In this document: piece after piece, positions 5,009 through 51,534 of the stretch
Position numbering within the stretch: the first letter of the stretch is position 1
Layout: every line of letters begins with the position of its first letter
Assembly: GCF_023264895.1 (NCBI RefSeq)
Contig: NZ_JAHFUY010000026.1
Location: 1 to 64,000, forward strand
Direction: 5' to 3'
Length of the DNA: 64,000 bases
DNA from: Herbiconiux sp.
GTDB lineage: Bacteria > Actinomycetota > Actinomycetes > Actinomycetales > Microbacteriaceae
Notes under the pieces: model-generated
What the model was told of the DNA's origin: nothing
The model's database searches: none
The model's input: the letters and a program-made list of their open reading frames with translations, nothing else
Program-made: the position numbers and the translations under genes

Positions 5009-5033
5009 AGTCACACCAATGAGAGGAACAACC

Positions 5034-6038: not shown

Positions 6039-6053
6039 GCCCTTCCGGACTCC

Positions 6054-6085: not shown

Positions 6086-6126
6086 ACCCCCCACTTTTTC
6101 TTCACGAACTCAGCAGGGAGCACGCC

Positions 6127-7716: not shown

Positions 7717-7720
7717 CACT

Positions 7721-7807: not shown

Positions 7808-7858
7808 GCGCGGGGCGCCGGGCGTGGGGCGCGGGGCGCGGGGCGGCGGGCGGCGCCG

Positions 7859-10412: not shown

Positions 10413-10428
10413 CGCGCGCCGCCCCGCC

Positions 10429-12845: not shown

Positions 12846-12846
12846 G

Positions 12847-13761: not shown

Positions 13762-13827
13762 CGCATTCACTCCTCATCGTCGGGGATGGATCCAGGATGA
13801 CCATCGCCGGATGCCGAGCTGAACCGC

Positions 13828-13844
13828 TGTCGCAAAATGACGCA
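13828..13844. promoter_or_regulatory. possible activator half-sites in the divergent control region
   Basis: The 177-bp space between the hydrolase and binding-protein genes must hold both promoters of the island. Two direct 7-mers, TGTCGCA and TGACGCA, are separated by AAA here. They are the only repeated motif I see and could be regulator half-sites; no clear promoter is readable. Confidence 0.25.
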
Positions 13845-13938
13845 CCGCCGTCTCAGGGTGACCCGCCAGGGGCTCGGGCGAGCACGGAGACTTCTAAGCA
13901 CGCAGCCCCAACTCAATGAAGAGAGACGAGGACTACCC

Positions 13939-15099: not shown

Positions 15100-15110
15100 G
15101 GCGCCCGGAC

Positions 15111-15833
15111 ATGGATCGCCTGACAGGCAAAGTCGCCATCGTCACCGGAGCCGGTCGCGGCATCGGCCGCTCGATCGCCGAGGTCTTCGCCGAGGAGGGT
15201 GCGACGGTCATCGCGACCGGCCGCGCCTCCTCCGACTCCACCTTCCCCGAGGGGGTGGAGTACCACCGCCTCGACGTGGCCACGGAGGAGGGCTGGTCGC
15301 GGGTGGTGGCCGACGTGATCGCCCGCCACGGCCACATCGACGTGCTGGTGAACAACGCCGGCATCATCGCCTACGAGACCCTGCACGAGCTCACCCTCGA
15401 CGACTGGAACGCGGTCGTCGCCACCAACCAGACCGGAACGTGGCTCGGCATGCGCGAGGTCATCCCGCACATGATCGCGCAGGGCGGCGGCTCGATCGTC
15501 AACACCTCCTCGATCTGGGGGACCGCCGCGGTCTCCGGAGCCCACGCCTACCACGCCACCAAGGGCGCGGTGCGCAACATGTCCAAGAGCGCCGCCATCA
15601 CCTACGCCAAGGAGAACGTGCGGGTGAACTCGCTGCACCCGGGCTTCATCGAGACGCCGCTGACGGATGCCCAGGCGCCGGAGATCAACGAGTACGTCGT
15701 GTCGATGACCCCCATGGGCCGTGCCGGGAAGCCTCGGGAGATCGCGCACGGCGTGGTCTTCCTGGCCTCCGACGAGTCGAGCTTCATGACGGGCTCGGAG
15801 CTCGTGATCGACGGCGGCTACCTCGCCCAATGA
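15111..15833 (+). CDS. short-chain dehydrogenase/reductase, secondary-alcohol type
   Basis: This 240-residue classical SDR has TGAGRGIG (12-19), NNAG (81-84), active-site Ser133/134, Tyr147 and Lys151. GGYLAQ ends the protein. It sits 11 nt after the binding-protein gene and 19 nt before the transporter gene, so it is embedded in the import operon. That placement suggests it acts first on the imported compound, oxidising a secondary alcohol to the ketone used by the Baeyer-Villiger enzyme. The ATG at 15111 is chosen because the upstream frame overlaps the lipoprotein gene. Confidence 0.87.
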   Translation: MDRLTGKVAIVTGAGRGIGRSIAEVFAEEGATVIATGRASSDSTFPEGVEYHRLDVATEEGWSRVVADVIARHGHIDVLVNNAGIIAYETLHELTLDDWNAVVATNQTGTWLGMREVIPHMIAQGGGSIVNTSSIWGTAAVSGAHAYHATKGAVRNMSKSAAITYAKENVRVNSLHPGFIETPLTDAQAPEINEYVVSMTPMGRAGKPREIAHGVVFLASDESSFMTGSELVIDGGYLAQ

Positions 15834-15852
15834 GACGAAAGAAGCGAAACCG

Positions 15853-18450
15853 ATGACGAATTCCGACATCTACGATGTCGCGCTCGCCGCGGCCCCCGAG
15901 CCGGCAGGATCTCCCGGTCCCGCTGTGCCCGGGGCGCCGGTGCTCCAGCTCGATGCCATCGTCAAGACCTTTCCCGGCGTCCGCGCCCTCACCGATGTGA
16001 ACCTCGAGGTGCTGGCCGGCGAGGTGCACGCGCTCGTGGGCGAGAACGGCGCCGGCAAGTCCACGCTCATGGCGGTGGCCTCGGGTGCGCTCGCGCCCGA
16101 CGAGGGCACCGTGGTGATCGGCGGCCGCCGGCTCTCGACCGCGTCGCCGGACGAGGCCCGCGAGCTCGGACTCGGCATCGTGCGGCAGGATCCGGCGCTG
16201 CTGCCGGATCTCACCGTGGCCGAGAACATGGCGGTCGGAGTCGGCTACCGGCGGGTCGGCGGTCTCCGCCGTGCCGTGCACTGGTCGCAGCAGCAGCTGG
16301 ATCCGTGGGGCATGGGCATCGATGCCAGGACGCGGGTCGTCGACCTGTCGGTCGAGCAGCGCTTCGTCGTGGAGATCGCGAAGGCGCTCGCGCTCGACCC
16401 GAAGGTCCTCATCCTCGACGAGCCCACCGAGCACCTGAGTCTCGACGAGGTGCAGAAGCTCTTCGGCCGGGTGCGCGAGCTCGTGGCGGGCGGCACCGCG
16501 GTGGTCTACATCTCGCACCGCATCCCCGAGGTCAAGCAGATCGCCGACCGCATCACGGTGCTCCGCGACGGCCAGGTGCGCGGCACCTTCGCTGCGGCGG
16601 AAGTCGACGAGCAGCAGATCGTCGAGCGCGTCATCGGGCGCACGCTCGACACCGTCTTCCCCGAGAAGGCCGGATCGGCCGGCACGATCGGGGAGGACGA
16701 CAGGCTCGCCGTGCGCTCACTCTCGGGCGACGACTTCCACGACATCTCGTTCGCCGTGAAGGCCGGGGAGATCGTGGGGCTGGCCGGGGTGCAGGGCAAC
16801 GGGCAGGCCGCTCTCATCCGGGCCCTCGCGGGTCTCGAGAGCACGAGCGGGGTGATCGAGGTGGGTGGGCGCCGGGTGTCGAACGGATCGAACGCGTCGG
16901 CCTCCTCGGCGGGCGTCGTCTACGTTCCGGCCGACCGCCACGGTGAAGGGGTGTTCCTGCCGCTGTCGGTGGGCGACAACATCTCGGCGAAGACCCTGGG
17001 TGACGTCTCCACCGGCGGGATGGTGAGCGAGCGCCGGGTGCTGTCGGTGGCCGCCGCGCAGATCAGGCGCCTCGCCATCAAGACCCCCTCCGCCCGCACG
17101 CCGATCCAGTCGCTCTCGGGCGGCAATCAGCAGAAGGCCGTGCTGGCCCGCACGCTGCTGTCGGAGCCGACCGTGCTGCTCGCCGAGGAGCCGACGCAGG
17201 GAGTCGACGCCGGCGCCAGGGTCGACATCTACCGCATCCTCCACGACGCGGCGGCCGCCGGCGCGGCCGTGGTCATCCTCTCCTCCGATGGCGTCGAGCT
17301 CGAGGGCCTCTGCGACCGGGTGCTGATCATGTCGCGAGGTTCGGTGGTGCAGGAGCTCGTGGGCGACGACATCACCGAGGCCGCGATCGCCCGTGCCGCC
17401 CTCACCTCCACGACGGTGCGCGAACGCACCGACTCCGACGCCTCGGCCCGGGGCGTGAAGCTCCGCAGGTTCCTCCGCGGCGACCAGTCGCCGGCGGCGG
17501 TGCTCGGGCTGATCTTCCTCGTGCTCGGCGTCGTGGTGACGGCGGTCAACCCCGCCTACCTCGGCGCCTTCAACATCAACAACCTGCTCTTCATGGTGGC
17601 CCCGCTGCTGTTCGTGGGCGCCGCGCAGCAGGTGGTCGTGCTCGGCTCGGGGTTCGACCTCTCCGTCGGCCCCCTGATGGGCTTCCTGGTGGTGCTGGCC
17701 TCCTATTGGATCGTCGACGGCGGAAACCTCTACGTCGGCCTCGCGCTCATGCTCACCGGCGCCGTCGGCACCGGGGTGATCAACGGGTTCCTCGTGACGA
17801 GGTTCGGCATCAACCCGGTCGTGGTCACCCTCGCGATGTACATGGCGCTGCAGGGCATCTACCTGACGCTCCGCTCCACCCCCGGCGGCATCATCTTCGG
17901 CGACGTCGCCGATCAGATCCAGGCCCGCATCGGCATCGTTCCCGTCGTCACGATCCTCGCGGTCGTGGTGCTGCTCGTGCTCGAGTTCGCACTCCGCCGC
18001 ACCCGGTGGGGTCTCGAGCTCCGCGCGGTGGGGTCGCGGGTGGATGCGGCCGGCCGGCTCGGCATCAAGGTCAAGCGCACCCAGTTCCTCTCCTACGTGC
18101 TCTGCTCGTTCCTCGTGCTGCCCGCGGCCGTCGTGATGATGTCGCAGATCGGCATCGGCGACGGGCGGCCCTCGCTGTCGTACACGCTGGCTTCGGTCAC
18201 CGTGGTCGTGCTCGCGGGAGCCTCGATCTTCGGTGGGCGCGGCTCGTTCCTCGGCATCCTGGCCGCCGCGTTCCTCGTGCAGCAGGTGCTGAACGTCTCC
18301 CCGTTCCTCGGCCTCTCGCAGGCGTGGTCGTACTGGCTTCCCGGCCTCATCACCCTCACCGCGGCCGTGCTCTACGCGCAGCTCCGGCGCTCGCGCAGGA
18401 AGCGCCTGCGCGCCGCTCCGATCGCCTCACCGAAAGGGAGTGCAGCATGA
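15853..18450 (+). CDS. fused CUT2 ABC transporter: two ATPase cassettes plus permease
   Basis: This 865-residue protein joins an RbsA-like double ATPase to an RbsC-like permease. The first cassette has Walker [10 protein letters not shown] (63-71), LSVEQ in place of LSGGQ, and LILDEPTEHL. The second has GVQGNGQAA for Walker A, LSGGNQQK, and LLAEEPTQGVD with Glu where the Walker B Asp normally is. From about residue 530 a membrane domain follows, with GSGFDLSVGPLMG and a series of hydrophobic spans. The frame is open throughout, so this is a real fusion. A second free permease gene overlaps its stop. Confidence 0.88.
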   Translation: MTNSDIYDVALAAAPEPAGSPGPAVPGAPVLQLDAIVKTFPGVRALTDVNLEVLAGEVHALVGENGAGKSTLMAVASGALAPDEGTVVIGGRRLSTASPDEARELGLGIVRQDPALLPDLTVAENMAVGVGYRRVGGLRRAVHWSQQQLDPWGMGIDARTRVVDLSVEQRFVVEIAKALALDPKVLILDEPTEHLSLDEVQKLFGRVRELVAGGTAVVYISHRIPEVKQIADRITVLRDGQVRGTFAAAEVDEQQIVERVIGRTLDTVFPEKAGSAGTIGEDDRLAVRSLSGDDFHDISFAVKAGEIVGLAGVQGNGQAALIRALAGLESTSGVIEVGGRRVSNGSNASASSAGVVYVPADRHGEGVFLPLSVGDNISAKTLGDVSTGGMVSERRVLSVAAAQIRRLAIKTPSARTPIQSLSGGNQQKAVLARTLLSEPTVLLAEEPTQGVDAGARVDIYRILHDAAAAGAAVVILSSDGVELEGLCDRVLIMSRGSVVQELVGDDITEAAIARAALTSTTVRERTDSDASARGVKLRRFLRGDQSPAAVLGLIFLVLGVVVTAVNPAYLGAFNINNLLFMVAPLLFVGAAQQVVVLGSGFDLSVGPLMGFLVVLASYWIVDGGNLYVGLALMLTGAVGTGVINGFLVTRFGINPVVVTLAMYMALQGIYLTLRSTPGGIIFGDVADQIQARIGIVPVVTILAVVVLLVLEFALRRTRWGLELRAVGSRVDAAGRLGIKVKRTQFLSYVLCSFLVLPAAVVMMSQIGIGDGRPSLSYTLASVTVVVLAGASIFGGRGSFLGILAAAFLVQQVLNVSPFLGLSQAWSYWLPGLITLTAAVLYAQLRRSRRKRLRAAPIASPKGSAA

Positions 18451-38909: not shown

Positions 38910-38980
38910 GTGGGAGATAACTATTTCGTTGCGCTCGGACTACGAGCCGCTCACCAAAGACGTTGAACTGGAGTGACCTG

Positions 38981-40171
38981 ATGTCGCTGACCCCTACCCG
39001 CGAAGACAAGTTCTCATTCGGACTGTGGACCATCGGCTACAACGGTGCCGACCCCTTCGGCGGCCCCACCCGCGCATCGCTCGACGTGGTGCACGCCGTC
39101 GAGAAGCTCTCCGAGCTCGGCGCCTACGGCCTCACCTTCCACGACGACGACCTGTTCGCCTTCGGTTCGACGGATGCCGAGCGCCAGACCCAGATCGACC
39201 GCCTGAAGGGCGCTCTCGCCGACACCGGCCTGATCGTGCCGATGGTCACCACCAATCTCTTCTCGGCGCCCGTGTTCAAGGACGGCGGCTTCACCTCCAA
39301 CGACCGGGCCGTCCGCCGCTTCGCGCTCCGCAAGGTGCTCCGCAACATCGACCTCGCCGCCGAGCTCGGCGCCAAGACGTTCGTGATGTGGGGCGGCCGC
39401 GAGGGCGCCGAGTACGACGCGGCGAAAGACATCCGCGCCGCTCTCGAGCGCTACCGCGAGGCCGTCAACCTCCTCGGCGACTACGTCACCGACAAGGGCT
39501 ACGACATCCGCTTCGCCATCGAGCCCAAGCCCAACGAGCCCCGCGGCGACATCCTGCTGCCGACGCTCGGCCACGCGCTCGCCTTCATCGAGACCCTCGA
39601 GCGCCCCGAGCTCGTGGGCGTCAACCCCGAGGTCGGCCACGAGCAGATGGCGGGCCTGAACTTCGCCGCCGGCATCGCCCAGGCGCTCTACCAGGGCAAG
39701 CTCTACCACATCGACCTCAACGGCCAGCGCGGCATCAAGTACGACCAGGACCTCGTGTTCGGTCACGGCGACCTGCAGAACGCCTTCGCGCTCGTCGACC
39801 TGCTCGAGAACGGCGGCCCGAACGGCGGCCCCTCCTACGACGGACCGCGCCACTTCGACTACAAGCCCTCGCGCACCGAGGACGAGACCGGCGTCTGGAC
39901 CTCGGCGGCCGCCAACATGCGCACCTACCTGCTGCTCAAGGAGCGCGCCGCCGCCTTCCGCGCCGACCCCGAGGTGCAGGAGGCGCTCGCCGCCTCGCGC
40001 GTGCCCGAGCTCTCGGAGCCCACGCTCTCGGCCGGGGAGTCGTACGACGACCTCCTCGCCGACCGCGCCTCCTACGAGGACTTCGACGCCGACGCCTACT
40101 TCAACGGCAAGGGCTTCGGCTTCGTGCGTCTGCAGCAGCTGGCGCTGGAGCACCTCACCGGCGCTAAGTAA
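38981..40171 (+). CDS. xylA: xylose isomerase (class I)
   Basis: This 396-residue TIM-barrel enzyme converts D-xylose to D-xylulose in the cytosol. Hallmarks include [12 protein letters not shown] (catalytic His-Asp), [11 protein letters not shown] (metal Glu/Lys), [13 protein letters not shown] and the metal Asp/His region YHIDLNGQ. The length matches actinobacterial class I enzymes. The ATG at 38981 follows GGAG; the upstream TTG is not needed. It is divergent from the ChvE importer operon and ends in a strong terminator. No kinase is adjacent; the FGGY kinase at 2446 is the only xylulokinase candidate in the window. Confidence 0.95.
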
Positions 40172-40225: not shown

Positions 40226-40522
40226 TCAGGGGGTGTGGGGGGTGGAGTCGTACTTGGTGAAGGCGGGGGCCGCTAGGGAGGCGGCCGCTATGCGGGTGGT
40301 CCAGGCTGCTACGTGGGGCTGGGTGGTGTGGAGGTCGTAGGAGGGGACGTCGTCCCAGGCCTCGTGGAGGACGATGCGGTTCGGCTCGGAGATGTCCCAG
40401 CTGAGGCGGTAGTCGATGTTGCCGGACTCCTGGCGGCACTCTGCCGCGAAGGTGGCGGCGGCCGCGGTGATGGCGGCCACCTCGTCGGGGGAGACGGCGA
40501 CGCCGCCGGTGATGACGAGCAT
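40226..40522 (-). CDS. antibiotic biosynthesis monooxygenase (ABM) domain protein
   Basis: This 98-residue single-domain protein has the ABM/dimeric ferredoxin-like pattern: a first strand LVITGGVAVSP, a helix with AAECRQESGNIDYRLS, NRIVLHEAWDDVPSYDLH and the terminal HVAAWTTRI. ABM proteins act as cofactor-free monooxygenases or binding partners. It is the last gene of the nine-gene operon, 28 nt after the LLM oxidoreductase. The frequent TGG/GGG codons of this gene are unusual. Confidence 0.78.
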   Translation of the reverse strand: MLVITGGVAVSPDEVAAITAAAATFAAECRQESGNIDYRLSWDISEPNRIVLHEAWDDVPSYDLHTTQPHVAAWTTRIAAASLAAPAFTKYDSTPHTP

Positions 40523-40550
40523 GGGGTTGTCCTTTCGTGGGTGGGGGAGG

Positions 40551-41567
40551 TCAGAGCGAGGCGCGGAGGGCCGGGAAGACGGCGTCGCCGAGGATCCTGA
40601 CCGAGGCCATGGTGTCCGGGCCCATCGGGGGTCCGAAGCTGATGTGGTCGACGCCCGCGTCGATCAGAGCGGCGCACTGGTCGATGACCTCGGTGGGGCC
40701 GCCCACGATGCCGAGCTCGAGCATCGAGGGGCTCACCGACCGGATGGCGTCGTCCTCGCGGCCCTCCAGCATGAGCGCCTGGGTGCGGGCGAACTCCTCG
40801 GGGTCGAGGCCGTTGCTCGCGAGCGCCTCCACCGACAGCGACCCGCTGTAGAGGGCGATGTGCTTGGCGAGCAGCCACCTGGCCTCGTCGCGGTCCTCCG
40901 AGATCGAGCACCAGATGCAGGCCGCCACGTCGATCTCGTCGATGCTGCGGCCGGCCTTCTCGGCGCCCGCCGTGATCTGCTCGATCACACCGTAGACGTG
41001 CCGCGGCGGCAGGCAGAGCGGCAGTGCGCCGTCGCCGAGCCGCCCCGTCATCTCGAGCATCCGCGGCCCCATCGCGCCCACGTAGATCGGGGCGGGCCGC
41101 GCGAAGCGGAGCACGGCCTGCTCGGTCCAGCCGGCGGCCACGCCGGCCAGCCCTATCGGGCTCTCGCCGTTCATCAGCGCCCGGATGGCGATGACCGCCT
41201 CGCGCGTGCGCACGACGGGGCCGGGCGGGGTCAGCCCCGCCCAGGAGTAGAAGACGTCGGAACCCGCGCCGAGCCCGAGCAGGAAGCGGTCGCCCGAGAG
41301 ATCCTGCAGCCCCGACGCCAGCATGGCGATCTGGGCGGGGTGGAGCGACACGGGATCGATCACGGCCGAGCCGAACCGGATCCGCTCCGTCGACATCGCG
41401 ATCGCCGCGAGCGACACGAGGCCGGGCTCGCCGAACAGATCGTTCCCGATCCAGACCTGGTCGAACCCGGAATCCTCGACGAATTTGGCCTTGGCGGCGA
41501 GCGGGCGCACGCCCTCGTGCGAGGAGATGCGGGCGCTGAAGGTCAGTCCGTCTCGGCTGAGGCTCAT
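40551..41567 (-). CDS. LLM-class flavin/F420-dependent oxidoreductase
   Basis: This 338-residue luciferase-like TIM-barrel enzyme has FVEDSGFDQVWIGNDLF, IRFGSAVIDPVSLHPAQIA and LGLGAGSDVFYSW, typical of the F420-dependent Mer-like branch. FMN dependence cannot be excluded. The ATG at 41567 overlaps the preceding small gene's stop. Together with an acyl-CoA-dehydrogenase-like monooxygenase in the same operon it suggests oxidative breakdown of an imported small molecule. Confidence 0.83.
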   Translation of the reverse strand: MSLSRDGLTFSARISSHEGVRPLAAKAKFVEDSGFDQVWIGNDLFGEPGLVSLAAIAMSTERIRFGSAVIDPVSLHPAQIAMLASGLQDLSGDRFLLGLGAGSDVFYSWAGLTPPGPVVRTREAVIAIRALMNGESPIGLAGVAAGWTEQAVLRFARPAPIYVGAMGPRMLEMTGRLGDGALPLCLPPRHVYGVIEQITAGAEKAGRSIDEIDVAACIWCSISEDRDEARWLLAKHIALYSGSLSVEALASNGLDPEEFARTQALMLEGREDDAIRSVSPSMLELGIVGGPTEVIDQCAALIDAGVDHISFGPPMGPDTMASVRILGDAVFPALRASL

Positions 41568-41842
41568 TCGGGGGTCTCCGGATCGGTGATGCGCTCGAGT
41601 CGCATGTACAGCGCCTCGGGTGGGTCGGGGCAGGCGATGAGGGGGCGGGAGTCGAGCCACTCGTCTCCCTCGGGCCGGTCGAGCCGGCTGCTGAGCAGCG
41701 GCATCGCGTTCGCGATGGCGAAGTAGCAGAACGGCCGGCCGGTGGGAAGCGACAGCTGGCCGTCGATCACGTCGAAGTGGTCGCCGGCGACGAGTCCGCA
41801 GGCGGAGTAGTTCATCGACTCGACGGTGCAGCGCACGTGCAT
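41564..41842 (-). CDS. small TIGR04076-like protein, second of tandem pair
   Basis: This 92-residue protein and the one before it are paralogues. Shared features are a first strand (VRCTVESM), GDHFDVIDGQLSLPTGRPF, AIANAMPLLSSRL, a Pro-Cys segment (RPLIACPDPPE) and the end MRLERI. The layout resembles the TIGR04076 family of small uncharacterised proteins. It starts 1 nt after its sister gene. No catalytic role can be assigned; it may be a subunit or accessory of the flavin enzymes. Confidence 0.6.
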   Translation of the reverse strand: MHVRCTVESMNYSACGLVAGDHFDVIDGQLSLPTGRPFCYFAIANAMPLLSSRLDRPEGDEWLDSRPLIACPDPPEALYMRLERITDPETPE

Positions 41843-41843
41843 C

Positions 41844-42152
41844 TCACGCCTCCCCGTCGTGCAGGTACGAGATCTCGGAGACCGGGATGCGATCGAGCCG
41901 CATCACGATGTTCTCGGTCGGATCGGGTGAGCAGATGTAGGGCTTCCGTGAGAGCCAGTCGTTCTCCTCGCCGAAGTCGCCGAGGCGGAGGGCCAGCACC
42001 GGGAAGACCGCGTTCATGGCGTAGATGTCGAACGTCGCTCCCGGCGGGAGCATCAGGGTCGACCCGACCACGTCGAAGTAGTCGCCGACCTTCGTGGTGC
42101 TGGTGGGCGAGTCGACGCGGTCCACGATCACGCGCACGGCGTACTCCGTCAC
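41844..42152 (-). CDS. small TIGR04076-like protein, first of tandem pair
   Basis: This 102-residue protein shares the pattern of the next gene: VRVIVDRVDS, KVGDYFDVVGSTLMLPPGATF, NAVFPVLALRL, KPYICSPDPTENIVMRLDRI. The GTG at 42152 overlaps the monooxygenase stop (GTGA). Two unequal paralogues side by side suggest a heteromer. Family assignment is by general layout only. Confidence 0.6.
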   Translation of the reverse strand: MTEYAVRVIVDRVDSPTSTTKVGDYFDVVGSTLMLPPGATFDIYAMNAVFPVLALRLGDFGEENDWLSRKPYICSPDPTENIVMRLDRIPVSEISYLHDGEA

Positions 42153-43402
42153 CCGAGCACCGAGCCCGCCGAGCCGGAGGCAGCCGCAGCCGAAGCGCCG
42201 GCGGCGTCGAGGTCGTCGAGCAGCAGCCCGGGCCCGTCGGCGTCGACGACGGCCTGGGCGAGGAACCCGTGCATCATCGCACGGCCGCCGACGTGCGCCA
42301 CCGCACCGTAGGAGTCGCGCACGACGCGCTGCATCGGGTGGTCGTCGAACAGGAAGCGGGCGGAGACCAGGTCGGTGGCGGTCTGCACGACGCGGCGCAT
42401 GACCTGGGTGGCGGTGGTCTGGGTCGAGATCATGCGCCAGAGCTGGGGCCCGGTGAGCGGCCGGCCGGCCTCGAACAGGATCTCGTCGGTGCGGCGGGCG
42501 ACCGCGGTGACCCCCGCGTGGAGGTGGTCGACGTCGGCGAGGATGCCGCCGAGCGCCTGCGTGGTCGCCGAGTCGAGCGTGGCCGCGGGGCGGGGCCCGC
42601 GCTTGGCCCGCACCGCCTCCACCGCCAGGTCGACGGCGTGCTGCGCGATGCCCACGGCGACGCCCGCCAGGCCGAAGAAGGCGATGTGCACGCTCTTGTT
42701 GAGCGGATCCTTCGCGCCGTCGTCGGGCGCCTCGCGATCGAAGGTGTGCGCATCCGGCACGAAGACCGGCACGGGCACCGAGTAGGAGGTGCTCCCGGAT
42801 CCGCGCACCCCGAGGGTCTGCCAGTTGTGGGCGAACACGATCGACTCCGGCGGCAGCCAGGCGCCGAGCACGAGCTGCTTGCCGCTCGCGCCGATCACGG
42901 GCTCGCCGCCCTCGAACGCGAAGCAGCCGCCCAGCACGTGGTGGGCCGACTGGCTGCCGCTGCCCCAGTCCCACGATCCGCTCACCATCCAGCCGCCGTC
43001 GACGCGGTCGGCCCGTCCGCGCGGGTGGAACGATCCGCTCGTGGGGCGGTCGGCATCCGGATACAGCTCGGCGTAGGCGTCGACGCCCAGCCGGCCCGCG
43101 TACATGCCGGTCGCGTTGAGCACGCCGACGTTCCAGCCGGCCGAGGCGTCGACCCGCGAGATGCGGGTGACCACGCCGAGCTGCTGCTCGAGGCTCATCT
43201 CGAGGCCGCCCCGGGAGGCCGGGAAGGCCATCCGGAAGAGGCCGGCGTCGCGGAGCACGCGCGCGACGTCGTCGGGGAGCTGGCGGGCGCCGTCGATCTC
43301 GTCGGCCTTGCCGGCGAGGTAGGGCCCCACCGTGCGGGAGTTGGCGATGACGGCGTCGGCCGTGGTGGGAGCGAGGAGGTCGAGCTCGAGGGTGGAGGTC
43401 AT
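42149..43402 (-). CDS. acyl-CoA dehydrogenase-like flavin monooxygenase (group D)
   Basis: This 417-residue protein has the acyl-CoA dehydrogenase fold of HsaA/DszC/SfnC-type monooxygenases: LPDDVARVLRDAGLFRMAFPASRGGLE, SRVDASAGWNVGV, WDWGSGSQSAHHV, TLGVRGSGSTSYSV and a helical C-terminal domain with QTTATQVMRRVVQTATD. It probably uses reduced FMN, which would need a flavin reductase encoded elsewhere. It starts 40 nt after the SDR-like gene. A dehydrogenase activity is the alternative. Confidence 0.8.
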   Translation of the reverse strand: MTSTLELDLLAPTTADAVIANSRTVGPYLAGKADEIDGARQLPDDVARVLRDAGLFRMAFPASRGGLEMSLEQQLGVVTRISRVDASAGWNVGVLNATGMYAGRLGVDAYAELYPDADRPTSGSFHPRGRADRVDGGWMVSGSWDWGSGSQSAHHVLGGCFAFEGGEPVIGASGKQLVLGAWLPPESIVFAHNWQTLGVRGSGSTSYSVPVPVFVPDAHTFDREAPDDGAKDPLNKSVHIAFFGLAGVAVGIAQHAVDLAVEAVRAKRGPRPAATLDSATTQALGGILADVDHLHAGVTAVARRTDEILFEAGRPLTGPQLWRMISTQTTATQVMRRVVQTATDLVSARFLFDDHPMQRVVRDSYGAVAHVGGRAMMHGFLAQAVVDADGPGLLLDDLDAAGASAAAASGSAGSVLG

Positions 43403-43442
43403 GGCGCTGGTCCTTGATCGGTGGTTCGAGTGGTCGGGGAGG

Positions 43443-44210
43443 TCAGGTGATCGGTTCGCCGCCGGTGACCCAGAGGGTCTGCCCGGTCAGGTGTCCGGAG
43501 CCCTCGCCCACGAGCAGCGCCGCTGTGGCGGCGACCTCGTGGGTGTCGGGCCAGTCGGGGAGGGCCAGGCGGCCGCGCAGCACCTCGGCGAGCTGCTCGA
43601 AGCTCTCGTCGAGCTCGCTGTCGTCGTCGCGGTCCAGGATGCGGCCGGGCGCGATGATGTTCGCCGTGATGCCGTGGCCGCCCTCTTCCAGTGCGAGGTA
43701 CCTGGTGAGCGTCGTCGCGGCGGCCTTCGCGGCGCCGAAGAGCCCGAACCCCTTCGAGGGCCGAGCCATCAGGGCTCCGGAGACGTAGACGATCCGCCCG
43801 AAGCCGGCCGCGCGCATGCCGGGCACCGCCCGTTGCACGAGCGCGAGATGACCTCGGACCCCGTCCAGCTGCCGTTCGAGCAGCTCGAACGGAGCTTCGG
43901 CCACCACGGGGTGGCCGTCGTCCGGCGGATGCGCGCAGTTGACCAGGATGTCGACGGGGCCGAGAGCGGCCTCCACCTCGGCGAAGGCGCGATCCACCTC
44001 GCCCGGATCGGTGCAGTCGGCGGCCACGGCGATCGCAGGGCCGTCGAGCGCGGCCGCCACGGCTTCGGCGGGACCGCGGGAAGAGCGGTAGTGCACTGCG
44101 ACCGACGCGCCCAGGGAGGACAGCCGCCCGGCGACAGCCCGGCCGAGGGCCCCGCTCCCGCCCGCGACGAACGCGACCCTCCCGGCGAGCTCGCCTGCCG
44201 CAGCGCTCAC
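43443..44210 (-). CDS. SDR-fold protein lacking the catalytic Tyr
   Basis: This 255-residue SDR-like protein keeps a cofactor-type loop AGGSGALG (17-24), NCAH (91-94), Ser144 and Lys162. The YxxxK tyrosine is Phe158 (FGAAK). Normal SDR redox chemistry is therefore doubtful; it may be a structural or non-redox member, or use another residue. The GTG at 44210 overlaps the ATPase stop. It lies between the importer genes and the flavin enzymes of the operon. Confidence 0.78.
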
Positions 44211-45022
44211 CGGAGCACCGCGGAGAGGAACGCCTTCGTGCGCTCGTGCTGGGGGTCGCCGAGCACCTGGGCGGGCGGGCCCTGCTCCACGATCCGCCCG
44301 GCGTCCATGAACACGACCCGGTCGCCGACCTCGCGCGCGAACCCCATCTCGTGGGTGACCACGAGCATCGTGACGCCGCCGGTCAGGGCGAGATCCTTCA
44401 TGACCGCGAGCACCTCGCCGACCAGTTCGGGGTCGAGCGCGCTCGTGGGCTCGTCGAACAGCATGACCTTGGGGCGCATGGCGAGGGCGCGGGCGATCGC
44501 CACGCGCTGCTGCTGGCCGCCGGAGAGCTGCGAGGGGTACGAGCCCTCCCGGCCGGCGAGGCCGACGCGCCCGAGCAGCGACGTCGCGTACGCCCTGGCC
44601 TCGGCCTTGTTCTCGTTCTTGACCGTGATCGGGGCGAAGCTCACGTTCTCGAGCACGGTCATGTGCGGGAAGAGGTTGAAGTGCTGGAACACCATGCCGA
44701 CCTCCACGCGCTTGCGGCACGCCTCCGCCTCACGGAGCTCGTGCAGCCGACCGTTCCGCAGGCGGTAGCCCACGAGCTCGCCGTCGACCCAGACGCTGCC
44801 CGCCCCGATCTCCTCGAGGTGGTTGACGCAGCGCAGCAGCGTGCTCTTGCCCGAGCCGGAGGGGCCGACGAGGCAGACGGTCTCGCCCTCCTCGACGGCG
44901 AGGTCGATGTCGTGCAGCACCTGGTTGTTGCCGTACCACTTGTCGACGTGCTGGATGTGCACCATGGGGCGGGCCGCATCCGGGGCCTCGTCGTTCGCGG
45001 GGTTCGGGATCCGGTCGCTCAT
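44207..45022 (-). CDS. polar amino-acid-type ABC transporter ATP-binding protein
   Basis: This 271-residue ATPase is of the GlnQ/HisP type: Walker [45 protein letters not shown], Walker [15 protein letters not shown] and VVTHEMGFA. An insertion ([20 protein letters not shown]) widens the region before the Q-loop, as in HisP. It starts in an ATGA overlap with the permease. It powers uptake by the adjacent permease and binding lipoprotein. Confidence 0.9.
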
Positions 45023-45852
45023 TTCTCCGCCGTCCGTCGCTCGAGGAGGTACTGCCCGATCGAGAACACGATGATCACGAGCAGGTACCAGATGGTGGCC
45101 ACGATCAGGAGCTCGATCGTGCGGTAGTTGGTGCCGGCGATGCCCTGCGCCACCGTCAGCAGGTCTCCGCCGGCGATGACGGAGACGATGGCCGACGCCT
45201 TGAGCATGCCGATGAACTCGTTGCCCATCGGCGGCAGGATGACGCGGAGCGCCTGCGGCAGCACGATGAAGCGCAGCGTGCGGGAGCTCGTGAGGCCGAG
45301 GGCTTTCGCGGCCTCGCGCTGGCCGCGCCCGATGGCGAGCAGTCCCGAGCGCACGATCTCCGCCATGTAGGCGGCCCCCGCGAGCGAGAGCCCGGCGACC
45401 GACGCGACGAACGGCGTGATCACCTCGGAGATCGGCACGTCGATGAGCACGACCTGGGTGCCCGGGATGCCGATGGTGATCGACTTGAGGAAGAGCCCGA
45501 GGTTGCCGAGCAGGATGAGCAGCACGATCAGCGGGATGCCGCGGAACACGAAGACGTAGAACGCCGCGACCGAGCTGATGATGCGGCTCGGCGAGATCCG
45601 CATGACCGCGATCACGACCGCCAGCACGACGGCGATGGCCATCGAGACGATCGTGATGACGAGCGTCGACCCGAGCCCCCGCAGGATGCTGGGGCTGAAG
45701 AGGAACTCGGCCACCACCGACCACTCGAAGTTCGGATTGGTCGCGATGCTGTAGACGGTGCCGATCACCGCCAGCACCACGATGACCGCGAAGATCATGC
45801 GGCCGTAGTGGCGCACGGGCACCACCATCAGATTCCTGCCCACTTCAGACAA
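45019..45852 (-). CDS. polar amino-acid-type ABC transporter permease
   Basis: This 277-residue HisMQ-type permease has [25 protein letters not shown] near the first spans, [17 protein letters not shown] and the EAA loop [29 protein letters not shown]. The TTG at 45852 has GAGGAG 8 nt upstream and is the only start with a good site. It is separated from the binding-protein gene by a 12-bp perfect hairpin. Confidence 0.88.
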
Positions 45853-45886
45853 CTCGTCGTCTCCTCATCGATCGACCCGGGAAGGG

Positions 45887-45920
45887 GACGGGCGGGAGGC
45901 CGGTGGCGCTCCCGCCCGTC
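45887..45920 (-). promoter_or_regulatory. intra-operon hairpin after the binding-protein gene
   Basis: A perfect 12-bp inverted repeat (45887-45898 with 45909-45920) around a 10-nt loop lies directly after the binding-protein stop and 35 nt before the permease start. It would attenuate or protect the upstream message. Confidence 0.65.
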
Positions 45921-45924
45921 GGTG

Positions 45925-46899
45925 CTACTCGGTCTCGCCGACCGGGGTGCCGCTCAGCGGGTTGATGACGACCTCGTCGGCCGTGAGGGCGGAGGACTCG
46001 AGGCCGTAGCCCGCGAGGATCTCCTCGTAGGTGCCGTTCTCGATGATCGCCTTGAGGGCGTCGGCGAGGGCCGTCGACAGCTCGGGGTTCGACTTCGCCA
46101 CGGCGATGCCGAGGAGCCCGGGGTCGGCGACCTCGGACTCGGCGACCGGGATCTCGACGGAGGCGAACGCGTCGGGCAGGGCCTCGACCGCGGCGAGCTG
46201 GTTGGCGGTGCCGTCGACCCAGCCGTCGATCGTGCCGGCCTGCACGGCGCTCACGGCGTTCTGCGCGTTCGGGTACTCGGCCACCGAGATGGCCGGCTCG
46301 CCCTCCGCCACGCAGGCGTCACTCGCCGCGGTGATCATGGCCGAGACGGTGGAGCCGACCCCGCCTCCGAGGGTGAGGCCGCAGCCGCTCGCGAGGGAGT
46401 CGAGGTCCTCCGGGTTCCCGGCGGGAACGAGGATGGAGTAGGTGCCGCGGTAGAACGGGATCAGGTCGACGACGCCGACCTCGCGCTCGGCCGTGACGCT
46501 GACCTGGCCGAGGAGCGCATCGACGTTGCCGCTCTGCACGCCGGGCAGCTGCGCCGGCCACTGCAGGTTCTGCCACTCGGGAGTGACACCGAGCACGTCG
46601 CTGAGGGCCGCCGCGAGCTCAGGGGCCAGGCCGATCGGCACCGTGGAGTCGTCGACCGAGACGTTCACCATGGGCGGGTTCTCCCAGAGGGCGCCGAACG
46701 AGACCGACTTCGACTCCTGGTTGGCGGCGGGCAGCTCGTCGAAGAGCGCCTGGTCGAACGAGGCCGCGGCCTCGGTGGTGGCGGGCGTGCCGGCATCGCT
46801 GCCGGTGCTGCACGCGGCGAGGCCCGCGAGGGTGGCCACCGCGACCGCCGCGACGGCGAGCTTCGTGACGGTCGGGGGCAAGAGGTGCGGAGTGCTCAA
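45925..46899 (-). CDS. amino-acid-type ABC substrate-binding lipoprotein
   Basis: This 324-residue lipoprotein has a signal peptide ending GLAAC and an SBP_bac_3 fold: SFGALWENPPMVNV, PIGLAPELAAALSDVLGV, WPAQLPGVQSGNVDALLG, CGLTLGGGVGSTV. The TTG at 46899 follows AAGGA at 6-7 nt; the longer ATG frame upstream has no site. It leads the nine-gene operon and defines the imported compound, possibly an amino acid or heterocycle that the flavin enzymes oxidise. The 151 bp upstream are A+T-rich at 47010-47050 and may hold the promoter. Confidence 0.85.
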   Translation of the reverse strand: MSTPHLLPPTVTKLAVAAVAVATLAGLAACSTGSDAGTPATTEAAASFDQALFDELPAANQESKSVSFGALWENPPMVNVSVDDSTVPIGLAPELAAALSDVLGVTPEWQNLQWPAQLPGVQSGNVDALLGQVSVTAEREVGVVDLIPFYRGTYSILVPAGNPEDLDSLASGCGLTLGGGVGSTVSAMITAASDACVAEGEPAISVAEYPNAQNAVSAVQAGTIDGWVDGTANQLAAVEALPDAFASVEIPVAESEVADPGLLGIAVAKSNPELSTALADALKAIIENGTYEEILAGYGLESSALTADEVVINPLSGTPVGETE

Positions 46900-47050: not shown

Positions 47051-47410
47051 TTACGTCAGATCGGTGTCGATCCATCCCACGTCGATGCTCTCGGCGGCCG
47101 CCGCCGCCGCGATCCGATTCCGATCGAGCTCGCCGGAGAGGAGGAAGAGCGCCGCGCAGTACTCGTGGCCGTAGCGCTGGAGGAAGTCCACGACGTCGTC
47201 GGTGCGGAGGGCCGACTCGCCGGGCCGGGACTGGAGGCGGTTGAGTCGGCGCTCCGGAGCGAGCCCTCGCTCCGTCACGATCCTGACGGCCTCCTCCTCG
47301 ACGACCTCCGGGATCGGCGAGCCGAGCATGACCTGCATCCGGGGGCTCTCCGGCCGGTAGGACTCCTCGAGGAAGGCGCGGACGGCGGCACGATCGGTGA
47401 GCAGGTTCAC
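47051..47410 (-). CDS. small hypothetical protein in the kynurenine operon
   Basis: This 119-residue acidic, mostly helical protein has no motif I recognise (FLEESYRPESPRMQVMLGS, VVDFLQRYGHEYCAALFLLS). The GTG at 47410 overlaps the PaaX-type regulator stop, so it is co-translated as the last gene of the operon. It may be an accessory of the regulator or of tryptophan catabolism; there is no sequence evidence for a reaction. Confidence 0.65.
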   Translation of the reverse strand: MNLLTDRAAVRAFLEESYRPESPRMQVMLGSPIPEVVEEEAVRIVTERGLAPERRLNRLQSRPGESALRTDDVVDFLQRYGHEYCAALFLLSGELDRNRIAAAAAAESIDVGWIDTDLT

Positions 47411-48234
47411 GGCGTCTCCTCCTCGACGCCGAGCACGGCGCGGACGTAGTCCCAGCCGGCGTCGGCGTAGGTGGTCGAGATGGCGGAGAACAGGGCCGTC
47501 GTCTCCTCGCCCGGCCAGTCGACCGGCAGGAGGTCCGAGGGCAGCCCCGGATCGATGTAGGGGATGATCCGCCAGGTGTCGACCCCGCGGATGTAGCGCG
47601 CGAAGGCCACGGCGTCGGTCTCGGCGGTGCCGTCGGCGAGGAGTGCCGACAGCTCGACCGCGACCTCGCGGTGCAGGGTCTCGAGCGCCGTGAGGTCCCA
47701 CCACTCGGCGATGGCATCCGACAGCTCACCGGCGACCCGGGGCCGTTCGGTGCGGAGGAGGGTCGCGTGGCGGCGGATGTCGAGGTCGTTCAGGATGTCC
47801 TCGACCTCGTCGGCGAGGAAGTCGGGGCAGATCCAGAGGGCGGGCGAGATCATCCCGCCGCCGATCCAGTACAGCCGGCGCCTCAGCTGGTGCCGCACGT
47901 GCCGGAGCTCCTCGGGCAGCGAGAAGGAGATGACGCACCACGGGTCGTCCGGCTGCATGTGCCGGGCCGAGAAGATCCGGCGGTCGCCCTTGCCGAGCAT
48001 CGTCGCCGCCTCGGGGGCGAGGGCGTAGCCGCTCACCTTGTCGCGGGAGTGCGGGACGAGCAGGCCCTTCTTCTTCAGTCGCACGACGGCCGTGCGGGTG
48101 AGGGGGGCCGAGACGTCGAGCTGCTCCATCACCTCGATCAGGTCGGCGATCGAGATCCAGCCGCCCGCGCGCCGGAGGTAGAGGCCGATCACGGTGCGGA
48201 TGAGTGACGTGGTGCTCCCGGGGCGGGAGTCCAT
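47407..48234 (-). CDS. PaaX-family transcriptional regulator
   Basis: This 275-residue protein follows the PaaX plan. An N-terminal winged helix (about 8-65, TSLIRTVIGLYLRRAGGWISI, APLTRTAVVRLKKKGLL) precedes a central Cas2-like domain (WCVISFSLPEELRHVRHQLRRRLYWIGGGM) and a C-terminal PaaX_C helix set. PaaX proteins usually sense aromatic CoA esters such as phenylacetyl-CoA. Encoded after tdo, amidohydrolase and kynU, this one probably senses a tryptophan breakdown product or anthraniloyl-CoA. A TGACGGCCGTCA palindrome upstream of tdo is a possible site. Confidence 0.82.
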   Translation of the reverse strand: MDSRPGSTTSLIRTVIGLYLRRAGGWISIADLIEVMEQLDVSAPLTRTAVVRLKKKGLLVPHSRDKVSGYALAPEAATMLGKGDRRIFSARHMQPDDPWCVISFSLPEELRHVRHQLRRRLYWIGGGMISPALWICPDFLADEVEDILNDLDIRRHATLLRTERPRVAGELSDAIAEWWDLTALETLHREVAVELSALLADGTAETDAVAFARYIRGVDTWRIIPYIDPGLPSDLLPVDWPGEETTALFSAISTTYADAGWDYVRAVLGVEEETP

Positions 48235-48251
48235 GTCATCCAGGATGTGGC

Positions 48252-49631
48252 TCACCGCCCGGGGTCCGCGTCCGCTCCGGATTCCGCATCCGCATCGGAG
48301 TCCGGATCGGCATCCGCATCGGCGAGGATGTCGCGGATCGCCTCGACCGCCACGAGCACCTCGCCGAAGGAGGTGCTGAGCGGGGAGAGCCCGAGCCGGA
48401 GGCCGTCGGGGTTGCGGAAGTCCGGGATGATCCCGCGCTTCCACAGCTCGGCGGTCACGGCCTTGAAGCGAGGATGCCGGATGGTGACGTGGCTGCCGCG
48501 CTCGCCGCTGTCGCGCGGGCTCGCGACCTGTACGCCGAACGGCGTCAGCAGGTCGTCGACGATCCGGATCGTGTACTCGGTGAGCGCGATCGACTTCTCG
48601 CGGATGGCGGGCATCCCCGCCTCCTCGATGAGCTCGAGCATGCCCTGCATCGGGAGCATGCCGAGAATGGGAGGGGTGCCGCTGATGAAGCGGCGCATCC
48701 CTTTCGCCGGCACGTAGCCCTCGGCCATGGCGAAGATGTCGCCCGCCCCCATCCAGCCCTGGATGGGCTGGTCGAGCTCGTCCTGCAGCGCGCTCGCCAC
48801 GTAGGCGAAGGCGGGCGAGCCAGGGCCGCCATTGAGGTACTTGTAGGTGCAGCCCACGGCGATGTCGACGTTCCAGGCATCGAGCTCGGTCGGCACCGAC
48901 CCTGCCGAGTGGCAGAGGTCCCAGAGCACGAGCGCGCCCGCGTCGTGCACGCGCGCCGTGATGCCGGCCACGTCGGCCAGGTGGCCGGAGCGGTACGAGA
49001 CGTGGCTGAGCACGACGAGCGCGACCTGGTCGCCGAACGACTCGCCCGAGGCGGCGGTGAGCGCCTCGTCGATCAGGTCGGTCGTGATCCCGGCCGCCTT
49101 GTCCACGCGGATCCACTGCAGCTCGAGCCCGCACTCCCGCGCGATGCCCTCGGCGATGAACCGGTCGGTGGGGAAGTTGTCGTCGTCCATGAGGATGCGC
49201 GTGCGACCCGGCCGTGCGGTCACTGCCGCGCGCATCATCTTGTAGAGCAGCACGGTGGTGGAGTCGGCGACGACGGTCTGGCCGGGCGCCGCACCGAGGG
49301 TCGAGGCGGCGATCCGGTCGCCGAGGCGGAGCGGGAGGTCGAGCCAGCGCTCGTCCCATGAGCGGATCAGGCGGGTGCCCCACTCACCGGCCACGACCTC
49401 GGTGAAGTCCGCTGCCGTCTGCCGGAGCGGGCGCCCGAGCGAGTTGCCGTCGAGGTAGGCGACGACGCCGTCGGCCGGGAGGAAGCGGTCGCGGAAGCGG
49501 GCGAGCGGGTCCGTGCGGTCGAGCTCCTCGGCCGAGGGCGCGGCGGCTGCGGCGGCTGCGGTGGTCGCAGTGGCCGCGGTGGTGGTGGCGCCGGCTTCCG
49601 AGGGTGCGGTGGCGGGTGTCGCGGTCGTCAT
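48252..49631 (-). CDS. kynU: kynureninase
   Basis: This 459-residue PLP enzyme cleaves L-kynurenine to anthranilate and L-alanine. The PLP lysine is Lys264 in CTYKYLNGGPGSP. YLDGNSLGRP, FPTDRFIAEG, VVLSHVSYRSGHLADV and LWDLCHSAGSVP complete the family pattern. The N-terminal 30 residues are Ala/Thr-rich and the C-terminus is an Asp/Ala repeat tail (DADADPDSDADAESGADAD), both outside the catalytic core. The ATG overlaps the amidohydrolase stop (ATGA). Confidence 0.93.
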   Translation of the reverse strand: MTTATPATAPSEAGATTTAATATTAAAAAAAPSAEELDRTDPLARFRDRFLPADGVVAYLDGNSLGRPLRQTAADFTEVVAGEWGTRLIRSWDERWLDLPLRLGDRIAASTLGAAPGQTVVADSTTVLLYKMMRAAVTARPGRTRILMDDDNFPTDRFIAEGIARECGLELQWIRVDKAAGITTDLIDEALTAASGESFGDQVALVVLSHVSYRSGHLADVAGITARVHDAGALVLWDLCHSAGSVPTELDAWNVDIAVGCTYKYLNGGPGSPAFAYVASALQDELDQPIQGWMGAGDIFAMAEGYVPAKGMRRFISGTPPILGMLPMQGMLELIEEAGMPAIREKSIALTEYTIRIVDDLLTPFGVQVASPRDSGERGSHVTIRHPRFKAVTAELWKRGIIPDFRNPDGLRLGLSPLSTSFGEVLVAVEAIRDILADADADPDSDADAESGADADPGR

Positions 49632-50674
49632 GAGGTCATCTCCTGGATCTGCGCGGCCGGAACGGCCTGAGCGGTGGCGAGCCACGCGGCGAGGCCGCCG
49701 AGCTCGCGAGGGCGTGGGGTCGGGATGATCGAGATCAGGCCGCCGGGGCGGGCGCCGGATCGCGGGCGGGCCAGCGACCGCACGACGGCTCCGGCGTCGA
49801 GGCCCGCGTCGACGAGGGCCTCGAGCTCGCGCTGGTTGATGCCGGTGGGGAGGGGCCCGTTGCCGAGGTCGGTGCCGTAGAGCACCTCGCCGCCGGCGCG
49901 GTGGAACCTCGCCAGATTGTCGCGCGCGACCTCGAAGTCGTCGGTGCGCTCGCCCCAGCCGTGGATGTCGAGGGTCGAGACCCAGCGCATCCGCTTCGCC
50001 ATGCCGGCGACGAGGGCGTCGGGCAGGGGCTCGCTCCACGGGGTGTGGGCCAGCAGGTCGACTCCGGCATCGGCGGCGCGGGCGGCCGAGCCGATCCCCT
50101 CGACGTGCGCGACGACCGGCAGCCCGAGCTCGTGCGCGGAGCCGACGACCGCGCGGGAGATGTCGCCGTCGAGCACGGCCTCGTCGTCGTGCAGGGCGAG
50201 CTTGATCACGTGGGCGCCGAACCCGTGCATCTCGGCGACCGCCGCGATCGCATCCTCGACCGAGGCCAGCTCGCGCACGGCCGCCGGGTCGGCCCAGCTG
50301 CGGGTGCCGGGGTAGCCGCCCGTCGCCGTCAGGAACGCGCCGGCGTACTCGATGTCGAGCGCACCGGCGCCGTCCGCGTTCTCGCCCATCGACCGGGCTG
50401 CGCGCGCCGACAGCGCCGACAGTGCCACCGGATCCCCGCCGAGATCGAGCACACGGGCGATCCCACCCGGAACGAGCGCCTCCGCGTCGATCAGGCCGAG
50501 GTGCACATGCGAATCGGTGAATCCGGGCAGGACCGCACCATCGAGGGTCCCGTCCACACCATTGGGCGGTGCCGTCTCGACGATCGAGGCGACGCCCCCG
50601 GTGACCTGCACGAGCGAGGGCCCGCGCCAGCCGTCGGCCCAGGCATCCGCCACCGCGAAGCAACCGTCTCCCAC
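49628..50674 (-). CDS. amidohydrolase-superfamily protein, candidate N-formylkynurenine hydrolase
   Basis: This 348-residue metal-dependent hydrolase shows the amidohydrolase ligand set: HVH (His56, His58) in PGFTDSHVHLGL, a Lys in HVIKLALHD, His in VVAHVEG and LLAHTPW, and Asp in YGTDLGNG. It lies exactly between tryptophan dioxygenase and kynureninase, where the formamidase step is needed. No KynB-type or AFMID-type enzyme is present. The GTG at 50674, 5 nt after the dioxygenase stop, is the likely start. The formamidase role is an inference from position. Confidence 0.8.
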   Translation of the reverse strand: MGDGCFAVADAWADGWRGPSLVQVTGGVASIVETAPPNGVDGTLDGAVLPGFTDSHVHLGLIDAEALVPGGIARVLDLGGDPVALSALSARAARSMGENADGAGALDIEYAGAFLTATGGYPGTRSWADPAAVRELASVEDAIAAVAEMHGFGAHVIKLALHDDEAVLDGDISRAVVGSAHELGLPVVAHVEGIGSAARAADAGVDLLAHTPWSEPLPDALVAGMAKRMRWVSTLDIHGWGERTDDFEVARDNLARFHRAGGEVLYGTDLGNGPLPTGINQRELEALVDAGLDAGAVVRSLARPRSGARPGGLISIIPTPRPRELGGLAAWLATAQAVPAAQIQEMTS

Positions 50675-50679
50675 CGCGC

Positions 50680-51534
50680 TCAGGCCCCGATCTCGGTGCG
50701 CACGGCGAACAGCTCGGGGAAGAAGGTGAGGTTGAGGGCGCGCTGCAGGAACTCGGCACCGCTCGATCCGCCCGTGCCGGTCTTCATACCGATCGTGCGC
50801 TGCACCGTGCGGAGGTGCCGGAAGCGCCAGAACTGGAAGTTGTCCTCGAGGTCGACGAGCTCCTCGCAGGCCTCGTAGACCCGCCAGTTGTCGGTGGCCG
50901 AGGTGTAGATGGTCGTGAAGACCGGCACGAGCTCGGGGGTGAAGACGTGCGCCTTCGTGACGTCGCGCTCGAGCAGGCTCGCCGGCACGTCGAAGCCCTG
51001 GCGTGCGAGGTAGCGGAGGAACTCGTCGTAGAGGCTCGGCGCCTCGAGGAGCTCCCGCAGCTCGGCCTGGGCGCTCGGGTCGGCCTCGAAGACCGAGAGC
51101 ATCTTCTCGTTCTTGTTGCCGAGGATGAACTCGATCGCGCGGTACTGGTGCGACTGGAAGCCGGAGGAGTTCGCCAGGAAGCCGCGGAACTCGGAGTACT
51201 CGGTCGGCGTGAGGGTGGCGAGCACCGACCACTGCTGGGTGAGGGTCTCCTGGATGTGCTTGATCCGCGCGATCCGCTTCAGGGCCGTGCCGATGTCGTC
51301 GTCGCGGAGGCAGAGCTGCGCGCTCCGCAGCTCGTGCAGCATGAGCTTCAGCCAGAGCTCGCTCGTCTGGTGCTGGATGATGAACAGCAGCTCGTCGTGA
51401 TGCTCCGGAACGCTCACCGGGCGCTGGAGGTCCAGCAGCTCGTCGAGCGCGAGGTAGGAGCCGTACGACATCCGCTTGCTGAAGTCGGTGACGATCCCGG
51501 CCTCGAGCGGCCTCGTGTTGCCATCGGTGCTCAT
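50680..51534 (-). CDS. kynA: tryptophan 2,3-dioxygenase
   Basis: This 284-residue heme enzyme opens the indole ring of L-tryptophan to N-formylkynurenine. Diagnostic stretches are [31 protein letters not shown], and the heme/substrate end [15 protein letters not shown] followed by [15 protein letters not shown] precedes the ATG. It is the first gene of the five-gene operon with amidohydrolase, kynU, a PaaX-type regulator and a small protein. Confidence 0.94.

Follow-up and report, generated by a model that had tools for sequence, protein, structure and literature searches.

A cluster of import and redox genes lies on the minus strand of a 64,000-nucleotide stretch of Herbiconiux sp. DNA (contig NZ_JAHFUY010000026.1), referred to here as the window. 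Its nine genes occupy positions 40226-46899. The first three encode an ATP-binding cassette (ABC) importer: a family-3 solute-binding lipoprotein (SBP; 45925..46899, TTG start, PF00497 75.7 bits), a permease of the amino-acid type (45019..45852, TTG start, PF00528 84 bits), and an ATPase (44207..45022, PF00005 121.9 bits). They are followed by a short-chain dehydrogenase/reductase (SDR; 43443..44210, GTG start, PF13561 118.5 bits) and the oxygenase part of a flavin monooxygenase (FMO; 42149..43402, PF08028/PF02771 of the Acyl-CoA_dh type), a relative of HsaA, HpaH C2, and Rv3094c. Two small paralogues come next, T1 (41844..42152, GTG start), which is assigned with the help of orthologue groups and scores 29 bits with TIGR04076 (cut-off 33), and T2 (41564..41842), which scores 37.3 bits with the same model. 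The last two genes encode an LLM oxidoreductase (40551..41567, Bac_luciferase, PF00296 179 bits), probably an F420H2-dependent reductase, and an ABM-domain protein (40226..40522, PF03992 46.5 bits), by family of the cofactor-independent monooxygenase type. The initial annotation presented these genes as an import-and-oxidation operon, and all nine frames are indeed open with Pfam and NCBIfam names that match. It also described their stops and starts as mostly overlapping, which is slightly too strong, since overlaps exist at four of the eight junctions. The distances in order are 72 nt (SBP-permease), -4 (permease-ATPase), -4 (ATPase-SDR), 40 (SDR-FMO), -4 (FMO-T1), 1 (T1-T2), -4 (T2-LLM), and 28 (LLM-ABM).

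The unit is larger than first described, its start having been set too late. Upstream genes at 47051-51534 run in the same direction into the cassette: tryptophan 2,3-dioxygenase (TDO; 50680..51534, PF03301 206 bits), an amidohydrolase-like protein (49628..50674, PF01979 19.9 bits, below the cut-off of 25), kynureninase of the catalytic type (KynU; 48252..49631, KYNU_C 95.9 bits), a PaaX-family transcriptional regulator (47407..48255; PF07848, PF20803, and PF08223 all above cut-off), and Y (47051..47410, GTG start). Y is a stand-alone 119-aa domain with the motif YGHEY, which its sequence and fold mark as a putative kynureninase-like pseudoenzyme. The gaps within this run are 5, -4, -4, and -4 nt, and the Y gene lies 151 nt from the SBP gene. 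A search of these 151 nt gave neither a consensus promoter nor a terminator, but the sigma-70 scan used is a weak tool for high-GC actinobacteria. On the other side, the unit is limited by a convergent plus-strand gene (38963-40171). In the nearest named relative, Herbiconiux oxytropis (locus L023), the whole region is present in the same gene order and the FMO is 95% identical. Between the two, dN/dS is 0.42 for Y (119 codons), 0.37 for T2, 0.85 for the ABM gene, and 0.05-0.24 for the other eleven genes.

When 84,980 species genomes were scanned with the FMO alignment as the sole query, 12 loci were obtained; the scan is based on short peptide patterns, reaches close relatives only, and may miss variants. 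Together with the window and a Rhodococcus plasmid these make 14 loci, of which at most 13 are independent cases because the window and L023 are near-identical. L016 and L026 are the same locus, as are L017 and L033, and each is counted once; L013 and L015 represent one plasmid type. Gene families were first grouped without labels before counting. Y, SBP, permease, ATPase, SDR, FMO, T1, T2, and an LLM are each found in all 14 loci, and Y is thus a tenth core gene that had been missed. ABM is found in 12 (absent from L024 and L032), or 10 of the 12 scan loci. The core genes stay together, in most cases beside TDO, KynU, and the PaaX regulator and often with a flavin reductase. PaaX is present in 13 loci, including a weak match (28%) in L024, and flavin reductase in nine (none in the window, L023, L026, L032, or L034). 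TDO adjoins the cassette in 10 of the 14, and KynU is likewise counted in 10, or nine without the L031 copy that is cut by the locus edge. The LLM gene directly follows T2 in 12 loci and precedes the SBP gene in L029 and L034. As for Y, the count combines 12 loci grouped together, the Rhodococcus copy (38% match), and L029, whose sole match is to itself and which is included on the strength of the alignment. For seven of the 14, the Y match is a query locus hitting itself, as is the case for several matches of the other small genes.

Because 12 loci retrieved by the FMO alone share this gene set, the arrangement is not due to chance. The idea of a conserved import-and-oxidation unit therefore stands, and the neighbourhood comparison that the initial annotation had proposed for the small paralogues with the LLM and DszC-like genes finds them together in every locus. 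The cassette is carried by Herbiconiux, Microbacterium, Nocardioides, Gordonia, Rhodococcus, Thermocatellispora, and an Ilumatobacter metagenome-assembled genome (MAG); in Rhodococcus it resides on plasmids predicted to be mobilizable. It is rare: the FMO profile at E 1e-60 matches two of 396 phylum genomes, one of them the window's own. T1 matches seven of 299 family genomes, and the operon is present in three, all of the window's genus; it was not seen in the stretches fetched from the other four. FMO homologues in genome G215 (33-34% identity) were rejected as operon copies, with no T1/T2 or SBP match in two 20-kb stretches. Among plasmids, 172 records match the FMO; the best 20 comprise two from Rhodococcus at 50% identity and others at 27.7-33.2%. 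A Vibrio plasmid record (H17) has a different neighbourhood and was discarded. A second FMO paralogue, about 40% identical, is found within the cassette transporter genes of L025, L026, L033, and L027.

The genes next to the core connect it to tryptophan breakdown. The window's TDO matches the solved enzyme 2nw7 (E 1e-108 over residues 2-283), and its KynU matches 1qz9 nearly end to end (E 2.5e-90); the YKY lysine motif is invariant across seven aligned KynU sequences. In Herbiconiux ginsengi, H. moechotypicola, strain 3FA27C10, and the Microbacterium loci L027 and L028, TDO and KynU come immediately after the ABM gene. Compared with the 10 of 14 loci in which TDO adjoins the cassette, TDO occurs anywhere in the genome in 102 of 299 family genomes; among carriers it is present in 11 of 13 at E 1e-10. 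In the window, L023, and L031, the amidohydrolase-like gene stands between TDO and KynU and is a candidate replacement for kynurenine formamidase; the same arrangement is found in L111, which has no cassette. In all, the order TDO-amidohydrolase-KynU (in L111, 13500-15426 onward) is seen in several Microbacteriaceae and a Nocardioides. A two-domain aryl-CoA monooxygenase/reductase adjoins the cassette in L013, L025, and L029 (and is cut by the locus edge in L027), and an aryl-CoA ligase does so in L013, L025, and L031. A nitrogen-containing aromatic, in line with the initial annotation, is a sensible substrate class, which is narrowed to tryptophan, kynurenine, or anthranilate chemistry by TDO and KynU adjoining 10 of 14 loci and by Y in all of them; its mention of sulfur found no counterpart, the genes annotated here including none recognised as a sulfur gene.

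Y has no Pfam match. Its predicted structure (pLDDT 93, pTM 0.86) ranks residues 136-253 of human kynureninase first among 1,000 chains (Z 13.7, 1.8 A over 113 residues, 18% identity), and the top three rows are all human kynureninase (2hzp, 3e9k, and 7s3v). Foldseek gives the same three as best, with E about 1e-5. Since other pyridoxal phosphate (PLP) enzymes of fold-type I score from Z 12.4 downward, the fold alone shows the superfamily only. Sequence comparison narrows this assignment. Human kynureninase is matched by the profile at E 1e-5, by the Thermocatellispora copy (L024) at E 1e-8, and by the Rhodococcus copy at E 1.3e-11 over 148 residues, and these sequence matches identify Y as a homologue of kynureninase specifically. 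None of the three sequence searches listed the bacterial enzyme 1qz9. The PLP-binding lysine is lacking. The window's copy ends before its position, and the Rhodococcus copy, a longer 277-aa frame on plasmid pN9T4-1 (L013, 11416-12249) that spans it, has His at the lysine of YKY. The plasmid's gene table, known to be incomplete, omits this frame. Copies of Y range from a large part of kynureninase down to a core of 112-119 aa, and in L025, L026, L028, L032, and L033 Y is fused behind a serine-hydrolase domain, each making up half of a 310-330 aa protein (the Pfam match was run on L025 only). A recent duplication of the neighbouring KynU is an improbable origin for Y, because the profile comparison between the two is weak (probability 53%, E 1.4e-4). 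In 299 family genomes, with at most 15 candidates scored per genome, the Y profile matches four: three carriers and one within a kynureninase gene whose lysine motif is intact.

The best NCBIfam model for the FMO, the HsaA equivalog NF045629, gives 95.6 bits against a cut-off of 450, and its profile scores Rv3094c at 124 bits, 3-HSA hydroxylase at 112, and XiaF and HpaH C2 at 94 each. For the flavin reductase (L025 copy), HsaB is the nearest curated model (90.8 bits, cut-off 230). A four-member LLM profile gives 154-213 bits with the F420-dependent enzyme Mer and 54-69 bits with the other solved LLM enzymes listed; the LLM scores 181.1 bits with the Mer equivalog TIGR03555, whose cut-off is 348.7. 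F420-reducing enzymes are encoded in five of the 14 clusters: FGD above cut-off in L025 and L026, Fno in L031, and further FGD copies in L028 (57%) and on the Rhodococcus plasmid (72% on L015, annotated fgd). The hosts appear equipped to make and reduce F420. CofD is above cut-off in 12 of 13 carrier genomes, and the remaining match runs off a contig end; it occurs in 67 of 149 family genomes, three carriers included. Within Microbacteriaceae, it is found in 8/8 carriers against 64/146 others (Fisher p 0.0018, kinship uncorrected). The window's genome also has FGD at 475 bits (cut-off 420), a cut-off exceeded in no control genome. Since Mer is the nearest relative, F420 reductases accompany 5/14 clusters, and CofD is so general in carriers, an F420H2-dependent reductase is a likelier identity for the LLM than a second oxygenase.

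In the SBP, Arg139, which we take from glutamine-binding protein to be the carboxylate-binding position, is invariant in nine of nine aligned members. Trp114, presumably an aromatic-stacking position, is also invariant among them. Together with the lack of the usual Asp for an alpha-amino group, these residues favour an aromatic carboxylate, with or without an alpha-amino group, as the ligand.

The small paralogues are harder to place. The T2 model has pLDDT 86, and no Foldseek match is better than E 0.3. Three structure rows stand out (Z 7.5, 6.6, and 6.6; next 3.4) that we take to be of the XdhC/CoxI type, a similarity too weak for assigning function. Searched by sequence against solved structures, the T family gave nothing better than E 0.035. 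A possible redox or iron-cluster role has been suggested for a TIGR04076 protein (PMC8667426). In a second conserved pair, a single TIGR04076 protein directly precedes an LLM gene, often after an amidohydrolase (L018-L022, L084, L086). A general TIGR04076-LLM link was rejected, as only 2 of 30 phylum loci have an LLM match in flanks of roughly 1.5 kb (four LLM queries); it holds for the branch seen in L018-L022 plus those two loci. The pair is followed by a hydrolase and TDO in L018 (9677-13030), and by a hydrolase and kynureninase in L020 (9847-13539), both from other Microbacteriaceae genera. These neighbours favour kynurenine-related chemistry for the pair. In L019, L021, and L022 it stands without TDO or KynU in the stretches examined.

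With a little better than an even chance, in our estimate, the cluster is a conserved actinobacterial catabolic cassette attached to the tryptophan-kynurenine-anthranilate pathway, in which a substrate is first oxygenated and then reduced. The importer would take up an aromatic carboxylate of the tryptophan, kynurenine, or anthranilate family, and TDO, the hydrolase, and KynU would convert tryptophan to anthranilate and alanine. FMO, supplied by a flavin reductase, may oxygenate an aromatic intermediate; the oxygenated, partly dearomatised product may then be reduced by the LLM, using F420H2 that FGD or Fno provides. Such a sequence would follow the monooxygenase-then-reductase logic of the two-domain aryl-CoA enzyme that lies beside several cassette copies. 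SDR and ABM could finish the conversion, T1 and T2 could assist the LLM, and Y, without the PLP lysine, would bind a kynurenine-like intermediate or regulate KynU rather than catalyze. A narrower proposal is more tentative: that the cassette constitutes an F420-dependent branch of aromatic amino-acid catabolism. The FMO/LLM pair would act on a kynurenine- or anthranilate-like intermediate with T1/T2 and the dead kynureninase as obligatory partners, the latter as a binding or regulatory subunit.

Several observations weigh against a link to kynurenine and F420 chemistry. The SBP has G, S, T, or A in all nine aligned members at the position that we take, again from glutamine-binding protein, to be the alpha-amino Asp, which argues against a standard alpha-amino acid ligand; in eight of the nine an Asp lies one residue earlier. 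The 151-nt gap in the window between the kynurenine genes and the importer may separate two transcripts. No TDO match at E 1e-10 is found in the Gordonia (L032) or Ilumatobacter (L034) genomes, the Thermocatellispora match is distant (38% identity), and TDO of Nocardioides SLBN-35 is about 23 kb from Y; TDO is therefore not essential to the cassette. The two-domain aryl-CoA enzyme carries the curated name salicylyl-CoA 5-hydroxylase/oxidoreductase (1203 bits, cut-off 1078), its possible anthraniloyl-CoA identity being suggested by the adjoining kynureninase, and the ligase reaches 316 against the benzoate-CoA ligase cut-off of 375. The window's cluster encodes no flavin reductase; its genome has homologues of 27-31% identity at other sites. 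The ABM dN/dS of 0.85 comes from few sites. CofH is above cut-off in five of 13 carriers, below it in seven (the window's genome included), and unmatched in one. Because control genomes also give sub-cut-off matches (11 of 14 match the model, three above cut-off), these are not counted. One such match (G000, contig C142, 14320-15348) scores 291 bits within a frame of 1018 codons and might represent either a diverged F0 synthase or an unrelated radical-SAM relative. Finally, the L034 cassette adjoins Mhp-like meta-cleavage genes and a HisC-like aminotransferase, which points to another fate downstream.

Among other explanations, the imported compound could be an auxin-like indole carboxylic acid whose ring is oxidised to anthranilate by FMO, SDR, and ABM, acting as IifC/IifD, IifB, and IifA do on indole, so that the kynurenine genes share only the end product. 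The SBP, with its carboxylate Arg, missing alpha-amino Asp, and presumed stacking Trp114, would suit such a ligand, and genes read as anthranilate-consuming lie nearby. The enzyme classes also match the iif route as far as the available text of PMC6221969 describes it (two-component FMO, SDR, and cofactor-independent oxygenase). However, the FMO is equally near XiaF and HpaH C2 (94 bits each) and nearer to Rv3094c and 3-HSA hydroxylase, and the LLM, T1/T2, and the kynureninase-like protein would be superfluous. PaaX also stands where most iac/iad loci are reported to encode MarR (PMC11630574). We consider this route unlikely.

Slightly less likely still is an unrelated phenolic or N-aryl substrate that undergoes HsaA-like ortho-hydroxylation to a catechol and ring cleavage, the kynurenine genes being merely co-regulated. 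It draws on the nearest curated models, HsaA and HsaB, both below cut-off, and on the Ilumatobacter MAG, where L034 joins the core to a LigB/MhpB-like dioxygenase, a hydratase, and, read by eye, hydrolases, acetaldehyde dehydrogenase, and an aldolase. This L034 run (332-16608) is a nearly unbroken same-strand series of cassette, MhpB-like dioxygenase, hydratase, and HisC-like aminotransferase, with acetaldehyde dehydrogenase and aldolase again read by eye. Against this, a kynureninase-derived protein in 14/14 loci, L034 too, points to kynurenine-like ligands, and TDO and KynU directly follow ABM in the Herbiconiux and Microbacterium loci. The version in the initial annotation, in which FMO and an FMN-dependent LLM both oxygenate an N- or S-heterocycle stepwise as in Dsz, is improbable: the two presumably resemble DszC and DszA in class and the FMO profile reaches a thermophilic DszC homologue at 45 bits, but the LLM is nearest to the F420 enzyme Mer (154-213 versus 54-69 bits), with FGD or Fno in 5/14 clusters and CofD in the carriers.

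If the tryptophan-linked, oxygenate-then-reduce reading is true, F420 chemistry is part of tryptophan catabolism, a kynureninase-derived pseudoenzyme is a fixed component of a catabolic operon, and the small TIGR04076-type proteins gain a testable context. No description of the cassette was found in the open-access papers searched (two of the result sets were covered as the best 20 of 56 and 10 of 13), nor any paper there joining F420 to kynurenine or tryptophan catabolism. No matching characterised operon appeared in these searches.

Among known systems, Mer (methylene-tetrahydromethanopterin reductase) is the nearest solved relative of the LLM, yet the score of 181 bits is well below the cut-off of 348.7. 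HsaA/HsaB, the steroid-ring monooxygenase, provides the nearest curated models for FMO and flavin reductase, both far below cut-off. Human-type kynureninase (2hzp, 3e9k, 7s3v) shares fold and sequence with Y (E 1e-5 to 1e-11), whereas Y is a fragment without the catalytic lysine. Quinaldine degradation in Arthrobacter Rue61a is reported to proceed via anthranilate and an anthraniloyl-CoA route with PaaX-related regulators; T1/T2, LLM, and Y are not mentioned in the excerpt of PMC3534580 available. The iac and iad auxin loci resemble the cassette in FMO and SDR logic (iac) and in the anthranilate end point (iad), to judge from the accessible parts of PMC9613470 and PMC11630574. They differ in that the window's 14 genes include no ring-hydroxylating dioxygenase, that the regulator is PaaX and not MarR, and that kynurenine genes are present. 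Compared by gene class, the iif/ind indole-to-anthranilate clusters have a two-component FMO, SDR, and cofactor-independent oxygenase (PMC6221969, in part); FMO and SDR are found in 14/14 cassettes, flavin reductase in 9/14 (not the window), and ABM in 12/14. What sets the cassette apart from them is its importer, its LLM with F420 support, T1/T2, and the pseudo-kynureninase.

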